Positions 7,414 through 26,712 of a stretch of DNA of 64,000 bases are shown here, in pieces. The first letter of the stretch is position 1; each line of letters starts with the position of its first letter. This stretch comes from a bacterium (GTDB lineage: Bacteria; UBP4; UBA4092; JAOAEQ01), in the NCBI GenBank assembly GCA_026416715.1, contig JAOAEQ010000002.1, forward strand, positions 34,255 to 98,254, given 5' to 3'. Position numbers and translations under genes: made by a program. The notes under the pieces were generated by a model. The model was not told where the DNA came from, made no database searches, and saw only the letters and a list, made by a program, of their open reading frames with translations.

Positions 7414-9588
7414 TTACTCAATAACTATTAATTCGTAGGTCTCAAAATTATCGATCGTAAAGTTAACTCTATCCAGAACAATTTGAAACGGAATTTGCTG
7501 TTTTAAAGATAGCGAAAATATTTTTTTCGGCGGTGATATCCGGAGTGAAATAGCTATTTTTGGAATCGGGAAAACTCTATTGATTGGACGTTGCATATCC
7601 CCACTCATATTAATCAGGTGAATCAGTAATCGGTTAGGATGCGACTGTTTTCGAAGTTCGATTTCAACCGTTGGTGGTGCATCGGTTTCCAAAAATAATC
7701 TATTTCCATAAGCAAGTTTGATGCTATTAATCATCAATTGCAGATGTTCTGCAAGTTTCAAACGCATATATGCCTCTTCTACGAGATGCGGAAAATAAAT
7801 GAGTTTGCCATTGCCTGACAATATCATGGCGGGATATTCCGATTCCCCTTGAAGCGAACGATACAACTGTCCTACTGGATTCATAAATATTATCGGACTC
7901 GGCGTTTTCGAGGTCGGTTGAATCAGCAAACTATATCCCGGTCGTGGTAGCAATTGGTTTAACCTAAGCCCATCAGTTATTAATTCATTCGATTTAATTT
8001 TTAAATATTCTTCGCCAGCAGTCGGTGCTAATACCCGTTCTATTTTGTTTATGCCAAATAATTGCCATAACGGATTCTGCGGTCTTGGGTTTCCGGATTC
8101 ATCATATTGTCCAGTTTCATAGCTAGCAATAAGGCTTCCTCCTTTTGCCACATACTCCTGAATCTTAGCTATTTGGCCATCAGACAGACAAGCAGCGTTT
8201 GATAATATGAGCACGCGATATTTTTGTGCGGTAATTCGTTTGATATCATCGTCAAGAATAATATCAAAAGGGATATGACTCCGAAACATCGCTGTCATCC
8301 AACCTAGCATTGCGGTATTCATAATCTGGTCGCAGATTGATTTTCGTTTCGTCCAGTCAATTGTTTTTTCTGCGGTAACATCAGCCACTAATCCTTCTTC
8401 GCGACCGGTTCCAACATCGAGATACATATCCGTTAATTGCGATAGATAATAGGTGGTTGTTTGTCGGGACAGAAGCAGTGCAATATCAGCCGCGGATTCT
8501 GTTGCCGTATAATAAACTTCATTTTCTTCAATGAATCCATTCACTTCTTGTACCGGATGTAGCGCCGTTTCATAACCATATTCTAATGCCGGGCTGAATA
8601 CTGCAAACCACGGATTTGCACCGTTCGCTACAGTCTGCGCAATTGCAATTCGCATTTCTTCTTCCGGCAGTGGAATATAATGCCAAGAACCAAGACAATG
8701 ATGGTTAAAAACTACTGCTGGCTTTTTCCCTGCAGTTAAATATTTCGCTAACCCTGACCAGAAAAAGAGTGATACATCTGGAAAACCAGGATGGAAAAAT
8801 GCTTCTGCACCATTGAAATCCTGATACGGTCCAACTTTCTCCATATCCCGAGCAATGCGCCATGCGCCACCGAGCCAATTTCCCGCATTTAGAAAAATTA
8901 CTCCTAACGGATTGATTGCTTTAACGACTTGGCGGGCATCATAGAGGAAATCAGCTACTGATTGTTCACGAAACTCGATAAATTTTTTCCAATTCGGGTT
9001 AAACCAATCTTCCTGGGTAGGAATTTCAGTTTGTTCCTGCAACTCGAATTTACGCCTACACGCAGAACAATAACAGCAATTCGGGTAGATTACCGGTCCA
9101 TCAAGGAACACGCCATCAACTCCGGTTTTCATTGTTTCTTCAATCATCTCAAATGCCCAATCTCGCCATCCGGAATTAACGCAAAAGGTTGTTCCAGAAC
9201 CGTATAGCGGTCGATAGCGACCGTAAGGTGTCCCATCCGGTAGCAATTGTTCCCACTCTGGATGGTTAGCCGCAAACTCATAGCTAAACCAATGCATATT
9301 TAGATACGCAAGCACTCGGATTCCATATTTTTTCGCATAAGGTAAATATTCTCGCAGCCAATCGAACTCACCTAAAGCGGGATATTTTTCAAATTTAGGC
9401 GTGTTAAAACTCACGGTATACCCTAATCCGGGAGCGACTCCTAACGTGGCTACGAGCCATTCACAGTTGATATGCCATTGTTCTTTTTTTATTTTCGCTA
9501 ATGCATCTAAATCAATGGATTTAATTTGTTCAAATGCATCTAAATAGTCTAGCCGCATCATTCGCACTGGTTTTTCATACCATTCCAT
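7414..9588 (-). CDS. Putative glycoside hydrolase (GHL-type, beta-galactosidase-like)
   Basis: 724 residues. Residues 1-350 look like a TIM-barrel glycosidase: LAYLNMHWFSYEFAANHPEW, a DGVFLDGPVIYPNCCYCSACRRKF stretch (a possible catalytic Asp in FLDGP plus a CCYCSAC cluster) and FLNAGNWLGG. Residues about 440-640 resemble the flavodoxin/GATase-like domain that follows the barrel in beta-galactosidase-type enzymes (KYRVLILSNAACLSDGQIAKIQEYVAKGGSL). A small beta domain closes the protein. There is no signal peptide, so it is probably cytoplasmic. It is monocistronic on the minus strand and convergent with nothing. The family level (hypothetical GHL / GH42-related) is a moderately firm reading; the substrate is unknown. 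Confidence 0.7.
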   Translation of the reverse strand: MEWYEKPVRMMRLDYLDAFEQIKSIDLDALAKIKKEQWHINCEWLVATLGVAPGLGYTVSFNTPKFEKYPALGEFDWLREYLPYAKKYGIRVLAYLNMHWFSYEFAANHPEWEQLLPDGTPYGRYRPLYGSGTTFCVNSGWRDWAFEMIEETMKTGVDGVFLDGPVIYPNCCYCSACRRKFELQEQTEIPTQEDWFNPNWKKFIEFREQSVADFLYDARQVVKAINPLGVIFLNAGNWLGGAWRIARDMEKVGPYQDFNGAEAFFHPGFPDVSLFFWSGLAKYLTAGKKPAVVFNHHCLGSWHYIPLPEEEMRIAIAQTVANGANPWFAVFSPALEYGYETALHPVQEVNGFIEENEVYYTATESAADIALLLSRQTTTYYLSQLTDMYLDVGTGREEGLVADVTAEKTIDWTKRKSICDQIMNTAMLGWMTAMFRSHIPFDIILDDDIKRITAQKYRVLILSNAACLSDGQIAKIQEYVAKGGSLIASYETGQYDESGNPRPQNPLWQLFGINKIERVLAPTAGEEYLKIKSNELITDGLRLNQLLPRPGYSLLIQPTSKTPSPIIFMNPVGQLYRSLQGESEYPAMILSGNGKLIYFPHLVEEAYMRLKLAEHLQLMINSIKLAYGNRLFLETDAPPTVEIELRKQSHPNRLLIHLINMSGDMQRPINRVFPIPKIAISLRISPPKKIFSLSLKQQIPFQIVLDRVNFTIDNFETYELIVIE

Positions 9589-10992: not shown

Positions 10993-11044
10993 GTTGTATT
11001 ATTATTTTAAACAAACAGTGGTATAACCCTGTGTGGGGTTCCGT

Positions 11045-11512
11045 ATGAAGATTGTTATCGGTTCAGACCACGCTGGATTCGAATTGAAAGAAACCATTAA
11101 ATCTTATTTACTTGAACTCGGACATGAAGTGAAAGATTTCGGAACGTTTGATGGTTCTACGCCGGTCGATTGGCCTGATATTGCGTTTTTAGTTGCACAA
11201 GCAGTGATGCGGGGTGAATTCGATCGCGGGATTATGATTGATGGTATCGGAACCGCTATGCCAATCGTAGCCAATCGTCTGCCGGGGATTCGCGCGATGT
11301 GTTGTTATGATGCGTTTACTACGCAAATGAGTCGAGAACATGCTGATGCAAATATCCTCTGTCTTGGCGGGTATATGACCGGTAAAGGTTTAGCGAAAAT
11401 ATTAGTTAAACAATGGCTGACTACTGAATTTCTCGGTGGTCGATATATCAAACGATTGGAGAAAGTAAAAGAACTAGAGAAAGTTCTTTATAAACCAGAA
11501 TTATTAAAATAA
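11045..11512 (+). CDS. rpiB: RpiB/LacAB family sugar-phosphate isomerase (BMC-type variant)
   Basis: 155 residues starting MKIVIGSDHAGFELKE, the family's usual N-terminus; a GTG at 11033 would add four residues. The family interconverts ribose 5-phosphate and ribulose 5-phosphate, or related sugar phosphates. The phosphate and ring-opening landmarks are present (SDHAG at 7-11, SREHADAN at 96-103, GIGTAMPIVAN at 67-77). The usual catalytic cysteine before the GTG loop (CGTGIG) is replaced by Asp66 in GIMIDGIG. From memory of the family, Asp variants of this kind occur in microcompartment-associated RpiB proteins. Its neighbours mtnP, deoC and eutN fit that. Substrate assignment is therefore open. 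Confidence 0.85.
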   Translation: MKIVIGSDHAGFELKETIKSYLLELGHEVKDFGTFDGSTPVDWPDIAFLVAQAVMRGEFDRGIMIDGIGTAMPIVANRLPGIRAMCCYDAFTTQMSREHADANILCLGGYMTGKGLAKILVKQWLTTEFLGGRYIKRLEKVKELEKVLYKPELLK

Positions 11513-11676: not shown

Positions 11677-12573
11677 ATGGAAAAAGTTAATTTAGCCGTA
11701 ATTGGTGGTAGTGGATTATATCAGATGGAAGGACTAACGGAGCTGAAGGAAGTGAAACTGAAAACTCCGTTCGGTAATCCATCTGATACAATTATGATAG
11801 GCACTTTAGCAGGGATGCGGATAGCATTTTTACCTCGGCATGGTCGCGGACATCGGATTATGCCAACGGAACTGAATTCCCGGGCGAATATTTATGCGTT
11901 AAAGAAACTGGGAGTAGAACGGATTATTTCCGTGAGTGCGGTAGGTAGTTTGCGAGAAGATTATAAACCGCTCGATGTGGTTATTCCCGACCAACTCGTT
12001 GACCGAACTCGGCATCGAATACATTCAACTTTTTTTGGGAATGGAATTGTTGCTCATATTCAATTTTCTGACCCGTTCTGTCCGGATTTATCGAAATGGC
12101 TTATTCAATCCGGACAAAATCTCAATAAAACTGTCCATCCGCAGGGAACTTGGATTTGTATGGAAGGACCGGCATTCTCGACAAAAGCGGAATCGAACTT
12201 ATATCGTCAATGGGGGATGGATATTATCGGGATGACCGTGCTTCCTGAAGCGAAATTAGCGCGGGAAGCAGAAATATGTTATGCTGCAATAGCTTTGGTT
12301 ACTGATTATGATTGCTGGCATCAGACGGAAGAAACTGTTTCTGTTGAAATGGTGATTCAGAATCTGTTAGCTAATGTAGAAACGGCAAAAAATATGATTC
12401 GCAATATTATTCCCATGCTGCCGAAAGAACGGAATTGTCATTGTGCAACGGCGTTACAGTATGCAATTATAACCGACCCGAAACGGATTACTCCCGCAAT
12501 CAGGAAAAAACTAGCGTTGCTTATTGATAAATATTTACCAGAACAACCTACAAAAAAAACGCAAAGCCTGTAG
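11677..12573 (+). CDS. mtnP: S-methyl-5'-thioadenosine phosphorylase
   Basis: 298 residues of the PNP/MTAP phosphorylase family. MTAP splits methylthioadenosine (and often 5'-deoxyadenosine) with phosphate into adenine and the 5-substituted ribose 1-phosphate. Visible landmarks are VIGGSGLYQMEGL at the N-terminus (phosphate loop), FLPRHGRGHRIMPTELNSRAN, the ISVSAVGSL core, MEGPAFSTKAE (substrate Glu/Phe region), and GMTVLPEAKLAREAEICYA leading to VTDYDCWH. The DYDCW signature favours MTAP over purine nucleoside phosphorylase. It stands between rpiB and deoC on the plus strand, and mtnA, the next step, is at 23.1 kb. Together they remove the by-products of S-adenosylmethionine radical chemistry and polyamine synthesis. 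Confidence 0.9.
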   Translation: MEKVNLAVIGGSGLYQMEGLTELKEVKLKTPFGNPSDTIMIGTLAGMRIAFLPRHGRGHRIMPTELNSRANIYALKKLGVERIISVSAVGSLREDYKPLDVVIPDQLVDRTRHRIHSTFFGNGIVAHIQFSDPFCPDLSKWLIQSGQNLNKTVHPQGTWICMEGPAFSTKAESNLYRQWGMDIIGMTVLPEAKLAREAEICYAAIALVTDYDCWHQTEETVSVEMVIQNLLANVETAKNMIRNIIPMLPKERNCHCATALQYAIITDPKRITPAIRKKLALLIDKYLPEQPTKKTQSL

Positions 12574-12988: not shown

Positions 12989-13882
12989 ATGAATGAACAA
13001 CAGATAAACGAATTGGTTACTGCTATAACCAGAAACGTTCTGGCGCGTCTGCAATCGGCTAAAGACTCGATTCATCAACTCCAACGTCCCACAACCGCAC
13101 TTGGTTGCAGCAACGATCCGGCTTCCTGTTCGGATTGCGGCCATTGCGCAACTAAACGAACTGATGCGGTGCAAGAATTCGTTCACGCCGGGGTAGCTCG
13201 AATCAGTTCTGCACCGCATATCGCGCAGGTTCCTGCCACCATCGCACGGTTGATTGACCATACCCTACTAAAACCAACAGCAACTCCGGATGAAATTATT
13301 CAACTCTGCCAAGAAGCGAAACAGTTTGGGTTTGCTACGGTTTGTGTAAATCCGACGTATGTTAAATTAGCTAAATCGCAATTACAAGGGAGTCCGGTTA
13401 AAGTTTGCACAGTGGTAGGGTTTCCGTTAGGCGCCACGTCAACCACTGCTAAAGTCTGCGAGACCTTGCAAGCGATAATTGACGGTGCCGATGAAATCGA
13501 TATGGTGATTAATATCGGGTTGCTTAAAGGAGGTCGGCTGAAAGAAGTTGAAGAAGATATCCGCGCGGTTAAACAAGCTTGTCAAGGACGAATCCTAAAA
13601 GTTATTATCGAAACTGCGCTGCTCTCTGATGAGGAGAAAGTTACCGCTTCAATTCTGGCGAAAGCGGCTGGAGCGGATTTCGTTAAAACTTCGACAGGGT
13701 TCTCTTCCGGCGGTGCTACGGTTAAAGATGTCGCGCTGATGCGAAAAGCGGTCGGTCCGGAAATGGGCGTTAAAGCCTCCGGCGGGATTCGGGATTTAGC
13801 TACCGCAGAACAAATGGTACAAGCTGGTGCAACCCGACTGGGCACTAGCGCAAGTATTGCAATCGTGAAAGGAACGCAATAA
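12989..13882 (+). CDS. deoC: Deoxyribose-phosphate aldolase with N-terminal encapsulation-peptide-like extension
   Basis: 297 residues; AAGGA precedes the ATG. Residues about 83-297 are a full DERA TIM barrel: LIDHTLLKP (88-96), Asp171 in [10 protein letters not shown], the Schiff-base Lys233 in FVKTSTGF and Lys262 in VKASGGI. It cleaves 2-deoxyribose 5-phosphate to acetaldehyde and glyceraldehyde 3-phosphate. The first 80 residues are not part of ordinary Deo[21 protein letters not shown] is an amphipathic helix of the type that targets enzymes into bacterial microcompartments. After a linker come four cysteines at 40, 47, 50 and 53 (C-x6-C-x2-C-x2-C), which may bind a metal. A volatile aldehyde product fits encapsulation. 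EutN at 22.0 kb supports this. Confidence 0.93.
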
Positions 13883-14032: not shown

Positions 14033-14572
14033 ATGTATTCTGATATAGAAAAAATATTATTAACCGAAGAACAGCTGCAAACGCGAATTAAAGAGCTCGG
14101 TGCCCAAATTTCACAAGATTATGTCGGGAAAAATCCGTTGTTAATCTCGGTACTTAAAGGGTCGATTATATTTTTATCTGATTTACTCCGTTGTATCACA
14201 ATCCCTTGTACTTTCGATTTAATGACGGTCAGCAGCTATGGGAAAAAAACGCATTCTTCCGGATCGGTTAAACTCGTCATGGATTTAAAACAAGATGTAG
14301 CTAATCAGCACGTTCTGATTATCGAAGATATCTTCGATACCGGAAGAACAATATACTATATCCTTGAACATATCAAACTCCGAAATCCAGCAAGCGTAAA
14401 AACCTGCGTTCTCTTAAACAAACTTGCTCCACGTGAGATAAATATTCATCTCGATTATATCGGATTCAATATTCCGAATGAATTTGTTGTTGGATATGGT
14501 CTTGATTACGGTGAATTCTATCGAAATCTACCGTATGTTTGTGTTCTCAAACCAGAAGTATACCAAAAGTAG
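14033..14572 (+). CDS. hpt: Hypoxanthine phosphoribosyltransferase
   Basis: 179 residues, the usual length. It joins hypoxanthine (and guanine) to PRPP to give IMP/GMP. The PRPP motif VLIIEDIFDTGRT is at 94-106, the first active-site loop LISVLKGSIIFLSDL is at 37-51, and the mobile loop SSYGKKTHSSG with its Ser-Tyr pair is at 67-77. The purine-clamp region GFNIPNEFVVGYGLDYGEFYRNLPY is intact. The gene lies between deoC and the pseudouridine synthase on the plus strand. With PNP at 24.6 kb it salvages bases released by nucleoside phosphorolysis, complementing the pentose branch through DeoB and DeoC. Confidence 0.93.
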   Translation: MYSDIEKILLTEEQLQTRIKELGAQISQDYVGKNPLLISVLKGSIIFLSDLLRCITIPCTFDLMTVSSYGKKTHSSGSVKLVMDLKQDVANQHVLIIEDIFDTGRTIYYILEHIKLRNPASVKTCVLLNKLAPREINIHLDYIGFNIPNEFVVGYGLDYGEFYRNLPYVCVLKPEVYQK

Positions 14573-22001: not shown

Positions 22002-22304
22002 ATGTATTTAGCGAAAGTCATCGGGAAAGTCATTTCAACCATTAAACATCCAGCGTATCTTGACCGAAAAATGTTGCTTATCCAACCGCTAACCCCGAAT
22101 AACCTACCCACTGGAAGAATTACGATTGCGATTGACTATGTCGGCGCAGGAGAAGGGGATACTGTTATCATCAGTGCTGGTCCGGGAACTGCGGCAGAAG
22201 TATTCGGATATCCCCGCGCTCCGATTCGAGAATTAATTGTCGGGATTGTTGACTACATCACAGTAGCAACCGCAGAACATAACAAACACAATCCAAATAG
22301 TTAA
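22002..22304 (+). CDS. eutN: EutN/CcmL family microcompartment vertex protein (BMC-P)
   Basis: 100 residues, the normal size of the family. The start MYLAKVIGKVISTIKHPAY matches the conserved N-terminal strand of EutN/CcmL. LLIQPLTPNNLPTGRITIAIDYVGAGEGDTVIISAGPGTA carries the family core (VGAGxGDTV then the Gly-rich pentamer loop), and IVGIVDYITV is the closing strand. Such proteins form pentamers that cap the vertices of bacterial microcompartment shells. No BMC-H hexamer gene is in this window, so the shell is not encoded as one locus here. The candidate cargo enzymes deoC and rpiB lie 8-11 kb upstream on the same strand. The next gene, a histidine kinase, starts within a few bases. Confidence 0.9.
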   Translation: MYLAKVIGKVISTIKHPAYLDRKMLLIQPLTPNNLPTGRITIAIDYVGAGEGDTVIISAGPGTAAEVFGYPRAPIRELIVGIVDYITVATAEHNKHNPNS

Positions 22305-22307
22305 CAA

Positions 22308-23087
22308 TTGCAACATTCAACTATGGCACCGGATACTACAGAACTTGAAGGAAAATTACGAGAAACAGAAAAACTCGCATATCTAGGGCAGATGTCGAGC
22401 AAACTAGCGCATGAGTTGCGGAATCCACTCAATACCATTTCGATAAATTTGCAGCTGCTTGAAGAAGATATAAAACGTCTCAAATCAACCAATTTAGACT
22501 TGGGATTAATTTCGCAAATAATCGATTGCAATAAATTTTGCCAACGAATAGAAATATCGCGACATGAAATCGAACGGCTTGAACATCTACTATCGAACTT
22601 CCTACGTTTTGCAAAAACCGCTCATAAAGAATTAATTTCTCTCGATATCAATCAGCTGCTCCGTAATTTGATTGAGTTTATCATGCCAACCGCGAAAGCT
22701 AAACAGATCGAAATTATCTCCGAATTGCAGTCAGGACTACCGTCCATTCGCGCTGACGATAAACTCATCAAATCCGCATTTCTAAATCTAATTCTGAACG
22801 CAATCGAAGCAATGCCAACCGGTGGAACGCTAACGATTAAGACTACTGCGGTTAACTCGGAGTTGAATCCAATCCAAGTTATCATTCAGGATACAGGAAT
22901 CGGTATACAACCGAAAAATCTCGCAAAAGTATTCGATATTTTTTATACTACGAAAGAAGATGGTTCCGGTCTCGGTCTGCCAATCGCTAAACGGATTATT
23001 AATGATATTGATGGAACGATTACGATAAGTTCAGAAGTCGGGAAAGGAACGACCGTTACGGTAACCCTCCCGACGGTACCACCGTAA
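22308..23087 (+). CDS. Soluble sensor histidine kinase
   Basis: About 259 residues from TTG 22308, or 254 from ATG 22323; neither has a good ribosome binding site, and coupling to eutN is likely. The H-box is LAHELRNPLNTI with His35, followed by a dimerisation helix. The HATPase domain has the N-box NLILNAIEAMP, the G1 box QDTGIGI and the G2 box DGSGLGLPIAKRI, so it should be active. There is no sensor domain and no membrane segment, as in NtrB-like cytosolic kinases; the N-terminal 25 residues (TTELEGKLRETEKLAYLGQMSSK) are a short coiled coil. Its regulator may be the REC-GGDEF protein encoded across the divergent spacer. Confidence 0.88.
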   Translation: MQHSTMAPDTTELEGKLRETEKLAYLGQMSSKLAHELRNPLNTISINLQLLEEDIKRLKSTNLDLGLISQIIDCNKFCQRIEISRHEIERLEHLLSNFLRFAKTAHKELISLDINQLLRNLIEFIMPTAKAKQIEIISELQSGLPSIRADDKLIKSAFLNLILNAIEAMPTGGTLTIKTTAVNSELNPIQVIIQDTGIGIQPKNLAKVFDIFYTTKEDGSGLGLPIAKRIINDIDGTITISSEVGKGTTVTVTLPTVPP

Positions 23088-23110
23088 TGGGTACAATTCG
23101 GAGTTGAAGT

Positions 23111-24124
23111 ATGGCAATAAAAACATTAGAATGGATTGACAATAAACTGCGGTTAATTGACCAGACGATGCTCCCAGAAGTTGAAGGGTATATTGAATGC
23201 CAAACGAAAGAAGAAGTGTTTGAAGCGATTCAGCAGATGCGAGTCCGTGGCGCACCAGCTATCGGAATTGCCGCGGCGTTTGGGGTCGTACTCGGATTAT
23301 TCCATTCGCAAACTACTGACTATCGCTCATTCCGGCAAGAAGCGGAACAGGTTATCCATTATCTTCGACTCGCTCGACCGACCGCAGTTAACCTTTTCAA
23401 CGCATTGAATCGTATGCAGCAGGTTATTGAGCAGAATAAAAATATGGAAGTTGCAGATATTAAAATCGCACTTTTAACCGAAGCGAAAATGATTCTTGAA
23501 GATGAGAAACGTGCTTCCCAGCAGATGGGTGATTTCGGCGCCCAATTACTTCCGCAAGAATGCACGATATTAACCCATTGCAATGCTGGCGCATTAGCGA
23601 CCGCAGAATATGGTACCGCATTAGCGGTCATCTATCGTGCGGTGGAACAAGGGAAAATTATCAAAGTATATGCCGATGAAACCCGACCACTCCTGCAAGG
23701 TGCGCGATTAACCTGCTGGGAATTAATGCGAGCGGGAATTGATGTAACCTTAATTTGCGATAATATGGCTGCATCGTTAATGCGGAAAAAACTAATTGAT
23801 TATATTTTTGTTGGTGCTGACCGTATTGCGCGCAACGGTGATACCGCTAATAAAATTGGAACTTATAACCTAGCGGTATTAGCGAAATACCATGGGATAC
23901 CATTTTACATTGTTGCGCCGACTTCGACCATAGATAACAATATTCCGGATGGTGAATACATCCCGATTGAAGAACGTGCTCCGGAAGAAATCACGCAATG
24001 GGGAAACCGACGAATTGCACCGAACAATGTTAAGGTATATAATCCTGCGTTCGATGTTACGCCAGCTGCATTAATCACCGGCTGGATTACTGAAGAAGGA
24101 CTTCGTCAACCGCCGTTTACTTAG
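23111..24124 (+). CDS. mtnA: S-methyl-5-thioribose-1-phosphate isomerase
   Basis: 337 residues of the MtnA / eIF2B-like family. It isomerises 5-methylthioribose 1-phosphate (and likely 5-deoxyribose 1-phosphate) to the ribulose form. The N-terminal RVRGAPAIGIAAAFG motif (44-58) binds substrate, the catalytic Cys157 lies in LTHCNAGALAT, and the catalytic Asp237 in VGADRIARNGDTANKIGTYN. The C-terminus has the IPIEERAPEEIT signature of MtnA proper rather than eIF2B. It follows the eutN-kinase pair on the plus strand and complements mtnP at 11.7 kb. No mtnB, mtnC, mtnD or mtnK is visible, so the full methionine salvage route is not in the window. Confidence 0.92.
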   Translation: MAIKTLEWIDNKLRLIDQTMLPEVEGYIECQTKEEVFEAIQQMRVRGAPAIGIAAAFGVVLGLFHSQTTDYRSFRQEAEQVIHYLRLARPTAVNLFNALNRMQQVIEQNKNMEVADIKIALLTEAKMILEDEKRASQQMGDFGAQLLPQECTILTHCNAGALATAEYGTALAVIYRAVEQGKIIKVYADETRPLLQGARLTCWELMRAGIDVTLICDNMAASLMRKKLIDYIFVGADRIARNGDTANKIGTYNLAVLAKYHGIPFYIVAPTSTIDNNIPDGEYIPIEERAPEEITQWGNRRIAPNNVKVYNPAFDVTPAALITGWITEEGLRQPPFT

Positions 24125-24276
24125 TCTCTATCTGATTTGAGCTGAAGAGGTATAATGCTTTTAGTATAAAAAATGGCTAACCCTACAAGGTTAGAACTCT
24201 GAGCTGAAGTTTATTCCGATGCATATCGGAACTCGGTCGAAGCTCGTTCGGTGCTATATTTCTAAGTGAATTTTGG
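24125..24276. other. Spacer upstream of the 20-bp hairpin
   Basis: About 150 bases after mtnA with repeated words of the form GAGCTGAAG...GAACTCGGTCGAAGCTCG (24190-24245). These resemble the TGAGC/TCGAAG palindromic words also seen at 7196-7211. No gene is seen. Confidence 0.35.
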
Positions 24277-24319
24277 GGGGTTGAGTGGGTATTGCTCAAA
24301 GCAATACCCACTCAACCCC
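24277..24319. repeat. Perfect 20-bp hairpin with 3-base loop
   Basis: 24277-24296 (GGGGTTGAGTGGGTATTGCT) is exactly complementary to 24300-24319; the loop is CAA. Neither side ends in a T tract, so it is not a standard terminator. It sits 21 bases upstream of the YggU-family start codon and would block a ribosome binding site if transcribed. The perfect match suggests a recent or selected palindromic element. Confidence 0.85.
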
Positions 24320-24340
24320 AGTGATACCCTACAATATAGA

Positions 24341-24601
24341 ATGAAATTAACAGTGAAATTACAGCCGCGAGCACGGAACAATGAAATTATCGGAGTTAAA
24401 GAAGGTATGGTATGGGTTCGGGTTACGGCACCGCCGGTTGATAATCAAGCGAATGGAGCGTTAATCGCTTGCTTAGCGAAAAAACTCGATATTCCGAAAT
24501 CTAGAATTCGGATTGTCACCGGAACCCAATCCCGAATAAAAGTCATTGAAATTGATGGAATAACCGACCTAGAACTTTATGCTAAATTAAAGGGGAAATA
24601 A
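24341..24601 (+). CDS. YggU/DUF167 family protein
   Basis: 86 residues starting MKLTVKLQPRARNNEIIGVK, the normal DUF167 N-terminus. A longer frame from 24266 would read through the strong hairpin and is rejected. Conserved landmarks: VRVTAPPVDNQANGALIACLAKKLDIPKS (the APPxDGxAN segment) and IRIVTGTQSRIKVIEI (GxxSRxK). The family's function is unknown; it is small, soluble and very widespread, often near YggT or pyrroline-5-carboxylate reductase. Here its stop TAA overlaps the ATG of the purine nucleoside phosphorylase by one base, so the two are translationally coupled. Confidence 0.85.
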   Translation: MKLTVKLQPRARNNEIIGVKEGMVWVRVTAPPVDNQANGALIACLAKKLDIPKSRIRIVTGTQSRIKVIEIDGITDLELYAKLKGK

Positions 24602-25437
24602 TGAATCCACGTATTACAATTCAACAAATTGAATCTAGCGCCCGATATGTAAAGAAACGGATTAAACCAACTCCCAAAATAGCGATTGTTCTCGGCTCGG
24701 GATTAGGTGAATCCATTACTACCGCTATCAAGAATAAGAAAATTATTCCTTATAAAACGGTACCGTATTTCCCGGTTTCAACTGTTCCTGGACATAGCGG
24801 TCAGCTTATTGCCGGTGAGCTCCATCGAACACCCCTACTAGTTCTACAGGGGCGCTGGCATTTTTATGAAGGATATACGCTTGCCCAGATAACCTTTCCG
24901 ATTCGCGTTCTTAAAGCGATTGGAATTAAAACGTTGATATTAACCTGTGCAGCTGGTGGATTAAATCCGAACCATCACCCTGGCGACTTAATGCTGATAA
25001 CTGACCATATCAACCTGATAGGAGATAATCCACTCATCGGACTCAATGACCCGGCGTTCGGACCGCGATTTCCAGATATGTCGGAACCATATAATTCGGA
25101 ATTAATTACATTAGCGCGAGCAACGGCAAAAAAACTCAACATTACATTGCATCAAGGGGTATATACCGCGGTTAGTGGTCCAAACTATGAAACGAACGCA
25201 GAATTGAAATGGCTTCGCAAAATCGGAACTGATGCTATCGGAATGTCAACCGTTCCAGAATGTATTGTCGCAAATCAAATCGGACTGCAGGTGCTCGGGG
25301 TTGTAGCGATAACTGATGTCTGGCATGGGAAATATAGCCAGCCGTTATCGCATACGGAAGTACTTAAAGTTGCGAACCGGATATCAGGCACGTTAAGTAA
25401 ACTTATTATTGGGATAATTAAAAATATCAAATGCTAA
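24601..25437 (+). CDS. Purine nucleoside phosphorylase, trimeric type
   Basis: 278 residues of the trimeric PNP (PunA/XapA) family. It splits inosine/guanosine and deoxy forms with phosphate into base and (deoxy)ribose 1-phosphate. The phosphate loop is VLGSGLGE (30-37), the conserved VPGHSGQLIAGEL follows, then LQGRWHFYEGY, TCAAGGLN, and the purine site VSGPNYETNAELKWL with Glu, leading to GTDAIGMSTVPECIVANQIG. It overlaps the YggU stop by one base and precedes deoB by about 100 bases. PNP, DeoB and DeoC together take purine deoxynucleosides to glyceraldehyde 3-phosphate and acetaldehyde. Confidence 0.93.
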   Translation: MNPRITIQQIESSARYVKKRIKPTPKIAIVLGSGLGESITTAIKNKKIIPYKTVPYFPVSTVPGHSGQLIAGELHRTPLLVLQGRWHFYEGYTLAQITFPIRVLKAIGIKTLILTCAAGGLNPNHHPGDLMLITDHINLIGDNPLIGLNDPAFGPRFPDMSEPYNSELITLARATAKKLNITLHQGVYTAVSGPNYETNAELKWLRKIGTDAIGMSTVPECIVANQIGLQVLGVVAITDVWHGKYSQPLSHTEVLKVANRISGTLSKLIIGIIKNIKC

Positions 25438-25536
25438 TTCTCACCTTCGTAACGATATCATACCTGCAAAAGCTGGACTGAATGCTAAGGGAATATAAAA
25501 TGATTAACCATGTAGCTTTGTTTTGATATTTCGTCT

Positions 25537-26712
25537 ATGCTGTTAACTCGGGTTATATTAATTGTCTTAGATGGTGTTGGAATCGGCGAACTTCCTGATG
25601 CAGTTCGATTTAATGACCAAGGGAGTAATACGCTGGGTAATCTCGCAAAAGCTGTCGGTGGATTGCAGCTCCCGAATTTCCAGAAACTCGGATTAGGCAA
25701 TATCGCTCCTATATTAGGAGTTGAACCGGCTAATCCTGCGCTAGCGAGTTATGGCAAAATGGCAGAACGCTCTGCGGGGAAAGATACTACGGTTGGCCAT
25801 TGGGAACTTGCTGGGATTATTTCTACCAAACCGTTTCCCGTGTATCCGCAAGGATTCCCGAAAGAAATTATCGACCAATTTATATCTGAAACTGGGATAC
25901 ACGGTATCCTCGGGAATGTTCCTGCTTCCGGAACTGAAATTATCTTGCGTCTCGGTGAAGAACATCTCAAAACCGGGTATCCTATCGTTTATACTTCTGC
26001 GGATAGCGTATTCCAAATCGCTGCACATGAAAAAATCATTCCGATTGAAGAGCAATATCGAATATGTACAATTGCGCGGCAGATTCTCCAAGGAGAGCAT
26101 GGGGTAGCGCGAGTTATTGCCCGTCCATTTCTTGGTGAACCGGGGAAATTTTATCGCACTGAACGACGAAAAGATTTTTCTCTTCCGCCACCGCAACCGA
26201 CAATGTTAGATTATTTAAAAGAAGCAGGATATACAGTGTTTGGCATCGGAAAAATCGAAGATATATTTGCAAATCAAGGGTTAACGAACTCAATCCATGC
26301 GCATGGTAATACGGAATGTATTGAAACTACGCTTGCGGTTATCCATCAATCGTTCTCAGGGCTCATTTTGGTTAATCTGGTTGATTTCGATATGCTCTGG
26401 GGACATCGGAACGATTGCGCCGGATTCTATCATGGATTGATTGAAGTAGATAAGAAACTTCCGGAAATAATGCATGCAATGCAACCAACGGATATCCTAT
26501 TTCTCGTTGCTGACCATGGTAATGACCCGACTACTCCTAGCACCGACCATTCCCGCGAATATTCACCGCTTTTGGTCTATAGCCCGTCGCTAAAAGGAAA
26601 CGTTAACCTTGGCACGCGCGCATCCTTCGCTGATATTGCTGGAACAATAGCGGAAATTTTCCAATTGAAGACTAACCTTGCTGGCAGAAGTTTCCTAAAA
26701 GAACTCATCTGA
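25537..26712 (+). CDS. deoB: Phosphopentomutase
   Basis: 391 residues of the alkaline-phosphatase superfamily. It converts (deoxy)ribose 1-phosphate to the 5-phosphate. The first metal Asp is in [15 protein letters not shown], the phosphorylated Thr region is [13 protein letters not shown], and the other metal ligands are in [12 protein letters not shown] and [25 protein letters not shown], all intact. Length matches E. coli DeoB (407). It follows the PNP gene on the plus strand and supplies the substrate of DeoC (deoxyribose 5-phosphate) and of RpiB (ribose 5-phosphate). The next gene is convergent, with only about 40 bases between stops and no obvious terminator. Confidence 0.96.

Follow-up and report, generated by a model that had tools for sequence, protein, structure and literature searches.

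What purpose is served by an N-terminal extension on a deoxyribose-phosphate aldolase (DeoC) when that extension includes both a helix and a cluster of cysteines? We addressed this question for a deoC gene in a stretch of 64,000 nucleotides of bacterial DNA, called here the window (Table 1). An earlier note had proposed that about the first 80 residues of this protein are foreign to ordinary DeoC, that they begin with a helix like the encapsulation peptides (EPs) of microcompartment (BMC) cargo, and that a C-x6-C-x2-C-x2-C cluster precedes the barrel.

Table 1. Features in the window discussed in the text.
Feature	Position	Strand	Basis
rpiB, ribose-5-phosphate isomerase B; ATG at 11045 likelier start	11033..11512	+	family matches
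MTAP, S-methyl-5'-thioadenosine phosphorylase	11677..12573	+	family matches
deoC, deoxyribose-phosphate aldolase with 84-residue N-terminal extension	12989..13882	+	family and catalytic-residue matches
putative encapsulation peptide, residues 3-22 (predicted helix 3-31)	12995..13054	+	AF2, EP profile
four-cysteine loop, residues 40-53, C-x6-C-x2-C-x2-C	13106..13147	+	sequence, spacing survey, chance estimate
GxxR segment, residues 58-76; G68, R71 invariant	13160..13216	+	alignment of 36 extended DeoCs
DERA barrel, residues 85-293, catalytic D171, K204, K233	13241..13867	+	TIGR00126, AF2, alignment
hpt, hypoxanthine phosphoribosyltransferase	14033..14572	+	family matches
BMC-P vertex shell protein (EutN_CcmL family)	22002..22304	+	PF03319 E 3.2e-22, 79.3 bits
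mtnA, methylthioribose-1-phosphate isomerase, tight cluster after BMC-P	23111..24124	+	
PNP, purine-nucleoside phosphorylase	24601..25437	+	
deoB, phosphopentomutase; makes DeoC substrate	25537..26712	+	

deoC encodes a DERA barrel behind an extension

The open reading frame (ORF) encodes 297 amino acids. Its start is well placed because the frame opens just two codons 5' of the ATG, and AAGGAA precedes the ATG. Asp171, Lys204 and Lys233 align with the catalytic residues of E. coli DERA; that is, the Asp and both Lys residues expected of such an enzyme are present. The family domain begins at residue 88 (Pfam DeoC) or 85 (TIGR00126 deoC) and solved DERA structures had no match upstream of residue 80, so the first 80 or so residues are indeed foreign to ordinary DeoC. 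AF2, given 36 relatives as input, modeled the barrel with confidence and residues 32-81 with low confidence. The C-terminus is VKGTQ (13868-13882), without the C-terminal Tyr common to most aligned relatives.

The N-terminal helix resembles an encapsulation peptide

The helix at residues 3-31 was predicted confidently by AF2, more weakly towards its end (pLDDT about 90 for residues 1-20). We built a helix profile of 17 columns from 31 other DeoC extensions, excluding the window DeoC, and used it to rank 253 ORFs from the window and three further stretches of the genome. The window DeoC came first (25.3), followed by the C-terminus of a class II aldolase (17.6) and the N-terminus of PduL (17.2); the next-best ORF scored 11.4. 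Both runners-up are BMC-locus proteins absent from the training of the profile. The window DeoC has the terminal amphipathic helix of about 15-20 residues and the linker that are expected of BMC cargo, and shell genes are present in the same genome. From these features we infer that helix 3-22 would package DeoC into shells.

The linker combines a cysteine loop with a GxxR segment

The cysteine cluster was as the earlier note described it, with Cys at positions 40, 47, 50 and 53. Cys accounts for 1.4% of residues across 47 genes of the window, and a run of 14 residues with four Cys would arise by chance somewhere in the extension with a probability of about 0.002. Only one other window gene reached this density, one that encodes a GHL6-type protein (7414-9588). 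Conservation in unrelated phyla is stronger evidence for the cluster than this chance estimate.

Beyond the cysteines, the G68-x-x-R71 pair was invariant in an alignment of 36 extended DeoCs, an invariance inflated by selection, since these proteins were picked mostly by a loose GxxR pattern. Among 48 extensions, the number of Cys near the linker was four in 23, five or six in 5, three in 3, two in 9, and zero or one in 8. That is, about two thirds had at least three, and four was the commonest number. The last Cys was exactly 10 or 14 residues upstream of the conserved Gly in 35 of the 43 linkers that contained cysteine; a distance of 14 marks the CxxCGxC type, which includes the window DeoC, and a distance of 10 marks other types. 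In 27 of 28 cases, the N-terminus of an AldDH or PduL encoded at these loci had at most one Cys. These regularities suggest that the cysteine loop and the GxxR segment make up one small module and that the linker is not a plain spacer.

About a third of the GxxR-type extensions had at most two cysteines, so the cysteine site is dispensable. When the cysteine label was mapped on a barrel tree, it required 19 changes (gains and losses not separated), at least 11 of them forced by well-supported branches. The GxxR segment resembles the last helix-strand of the barrel itself (E 2.8e-9; best local match in 31 of 36). Its origin by internal duplication is unproven, because the similarity signal was gone once GAxRI was masked. 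We looked across loci for a link between linker cysteines and nearby PduS/PduT and saw none; in L083, the only locus that has PduS and a CPG-type BMC-T close by, the DeoC linker is cysteine-free.

Several DeoCs had other unusual arrangements. Repeats like VTIGTAGKVF or VTYGSSGKPV occur 5' of the cysteine linker in some (L174, L195, L197). RpiB-DeoC fusions with a helix or a cysteine linker between the domains were found in L024, L063, L114 and other loci. A PduL-DeoC fusion in L059 (9347-10651) is joined by SDCCCCCSKKK and comes from a genome without a PF00936 match. In L014 (53-1492, minus strand), DeoC is fused behind a protein that resembles the flavoprotein-like ORF of BMC loci.

Extended DeoCs are found in genomes with BMC genes

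Scanning named genomes yielded 80 DeoC loci, and 109 DeoCs were scored. PF00936 was present in 45 of 46 genomes with a GxxR-type linker (the 45 include L031, a read-through) compared to 22 of 63 others (Fisher p about 1e-12). In the exception, L046, deoC is flanked by a group of three BMC-P genes. Because these loci had been found through their similarity to extended DeoCs, we did a second survey, in which 389 sampled genomes were searched with a profile and chosen ones were tested for PF00936. BMC genes were present in 42 of 42 genomes with an extended DeoC, a set that includes the source genome and several genomes used to build the profile, compared to 14 of 57 comparison genomes, which were chosen from the hit list and whose BMC status was pooled from several searches. 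Sequences were printed for 30 loci, so the 42 extensions were not all read individually; G029, counted among the 42, has neither GxxR nor cysteine. G078 and G094 had no extension on reading. G461, G314 and G341 cross stops and were omitted from the counts unread. L019, L025, L031, L199 and two plasmid matches were rejected as extended DeoCs when their frames were read and proved to be read-through artefacts.

Comparison of the N-terminus with other DeoCs, as the earlier note had suggested, revealed a GxxR-type extension that recurs among DeoCs of BMC-bearing genomes from many phyla; Levilinea saccharolytica, a cultivable species, has such a DeoC (L053). Among the loci in which this extension was found and read, we encountered no genome devoid of BMC genes, and the proposal that the helix is an encapsulation peptide is supported. 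In the only class-mate compared (G001), deoC likewise sits between MTAP and Hpt but lacks an extension like that of the window DeoC. This genome has no PF00936 shell gene, and the tail is missing from its class II aldolase.

BMC genes are scattered in this genome

The genome has two BMC-H genes, one tandem BMC-T (PF00936) and three BMC-P genes (PF03319), distributed over four places; one BMC-P is in the window. The BMC-T is PduT-like (TIGR02526, 3.7e-39) and contains CPGKY, a pore motif that has been linked to an Fe-S cluster (PMC6325248). At locus L009, BMC-H is accompanied by PduL, a class II aldolase, an acylating AldDH, a flavoprotein-like protein and an RnfC/PduS-like protein that has a 4Fe-4S domain. 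The main BMC locus does not include deoC. The deoC/rpiB pair has no adjoining shell gene: the BMC-P gene is about 8 kb off and the other shell genes are on other contigs. DeoC and RpiB are therefore not inside a shell-gene locus, as they would be in a typical sugar-phosphate (SPU) locus, and the AldDH and PduL expected there are in L009 and not beside deoC. No targeting helix was seen in the rpiB product of the window.

A tight run on the plus strand (22002-26712) comprises genes for BMC-P, a histidine kinase, MtnA, a DUF167-like ORF, PNP and DeoB. It may serve nucleoside, possibly 5'-deoxynucleoside, catabolism beside a shell gene. The mtnA, PNP and deoB enzymes could supply both aldolases.

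A class II aldolase has a similar cysteine cluster

In this genome, the class II aldolase has CKGAECAECGIC at its end, followed by a helix. Its cluster, C-x4-C-x2-C-x2-C, lies beside the C-terminal tag and is similar to the DeoC loop; similar clusters were not seen in the linkers of AldDH and PduL. Of 26 class II aldolases judged by eye, 18 came from BMC genomes, and 7 of these had at least three tail cysteines; 0 of the other 8 did (p about 0.05-0.06; 0.03 when 8 in place of 7 were counted). The association of tail cysteines with BMC genomes is only suggestive, because the p value is borderline and the non-BMC enzymes mostly have no tail. Some class II aldolases take part in 5-deoxyribose salvage, where they split 5-deoxyribulose-1-phosphate into DHAP and acetaldehyde (PMC6079011). 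The class II aldolase of L009 may be such an enzyme; in the literature searched we found no link between 5-deoxyribulose-1-phosphate and microcompartments.

Iron-sulfur or zinc

Matches of a CxxCGxC-type profile in the PDB were weak (E above 0.01). Most were Fe-S proteins; some were zinc proteins, among them a zinc dehydrogenase (6dkh) and a zinc subunit of RNA polymerase. Three other matches in the same genome that we examined were ferredoxin-type. The relative in G095 has CTACGLCVVKCP, a complete ferredoxin-like CxxCGxCxxxCP, and approaches the Pfam Fer4 family (E 6e-4, 20.0 bits versus a cut-off of 21.1). The window DeoC shares the CxxCGxC core of ferredoxin-type [4Fe-4S] sites, but its fourth cysteine is upstream and it has no Fer4 match. 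Compared to Fe-S families it gave no match at all, and its best hit was a sub-threshold zinc-binding domain. The combination of CxxCxxCxxxCP with a Fer4 match that defines [4Fe-4S] ferredoxins is thus missing from the window DeoC, and only G095 comes near it. Spacing varies among relatives and includes C-x2-C-x3-C-x3-C and C-x3-C-x4-C-x3-C, neither of which, to our knowledge, is a familiar Fe-S signature. We favour an Fe-S cluster at the cysteine site, not as an established fact, and zinc is a serious rival.

Discussion

We think it probable that DeoC is a lumen enzyme of an SPU-type BMC whose genes are scattered in this genome, that the helix targets it there, and that the cysteine/GxxR module holds one metal, likelier [4Fe-4S]. 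Targeting, metal and role are what we infer from the sequence, its conservation and its association with BMC genes. Helix 3-22 would tether DeoC to the shell's inner face or to a cargo core. The four thiolates would hold a single metal site, more likely [4Fe-4S] than zinc in the CxxCGxC type, and this site could be an ordered knob that docks aldolases in the lumen. AF2 had low confidence in the cysteine and GxxR regions and so does not show a folded knob. Alternatively, the site might be a relay that connects with the Fe-S shell protein and the PduS-like flavoprotein encoded by the same genome. A bolder version, which we consider unlikely, is that two unrelated aldolases feeding the same kind of organelle independently gained a [4Fe-4S] module beside a targeting helix; enzymes without redox chemistry would thereby be wired into an electron path that runs through Fe-S shell proteins.

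The strongest competitor, less probable in our view but to be taken seriously, is that the four cysteines bind structural zinc, which would stiffen the linker or join cargo enzymes and have no redox role. The structural zinc site of alcohol dehydrogenases is C-x2-C-x2-C-x7-C, and the relative in L090 has exactly this spacing. The zinc proteins among the PDB matches and the sub-threshold domain match fit as well, and loss of such a site without catalytic harm would be readily understood. However, CxxCGxC, and CxxCGxCxxxCP in G095, are ferredoxin-like.

Two readings without a metal seem improbable to about the same degree. Disulfide-regulated scaffolds exist in carboxysomes, and the cysteines could likewise form disulfides that lock cargo when the BMC interior is oxidising, as proposed for carboxysome assembly proteins. 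Even numbers of Cys (two or four) dominate, in favour of this reading, but the CxxC and CxxCxxC spacing and the exact register to GxxR fit metal binding better, and the AldDH and PduL linkers have no cysteine clusters. It is also conceivable, and just as doubtful, that only the helix matters and that the cysteines are functionless lineage baggage. The third of extensions with two or fewer Cys and the repeated changes on the barrel tree are in keeping with this. In contrast, the recurrence of four Cys, their exact spacing to an invariant Gly, and the parallel cysteines on class II aldolase tails all argue that the cysteines do something.

BMC-targeted DERA is already known, and the cysteine/GxxR module seems to be undescribed in the literature searched, in line with the suggestion that the cysteine cluster is the less described part of this protein. 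The passages concerned on SPU BMCs (Axen 2014, PMC4207490; Sutter 2021, PMC8217296) report the same DeoC-type aldolase, AldDH, PduL and RpiB in a BMC genome and do not describe the module; the word 'cysteine' is absent from the main text of PMC8217296, to which our search of that paper was confined. Our genome differs in that the main BMC locus has a class II aldolase and contains neither deoC nor rpiB. An unlinked deoC with an EP-like N-terminal extension is likewise reported from genomes with HO-type BMCs (Sutter 2021, PMC8217296). FRAG BMCs and SPU-like loci with a class II aldolase (Sutter 2021; Axen 2014) have the same scattered shell genes, PduL, AldDH and PduS-like protein, whereas here there are both aldolases, each with a helix and a cysteine loop, and three BMC-P genes in two places.

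Many bacterial phyla have organelle-targeted aldolases with the cysteine module. We know of no experimental study of an SPU BMC signature enzyme. With over 280 members in 26 phyla, the SPU class is one of the commonest kinds of BMC (Sutter 2021, PMC8217296). A conserved module on their signature enzyme, echoed on a second aldolase, provides a concrete handle on organelle assembly or redox balance, and serves as a sequence marker for BMC-targeted DERAs whose genes lie apart from shell genes.
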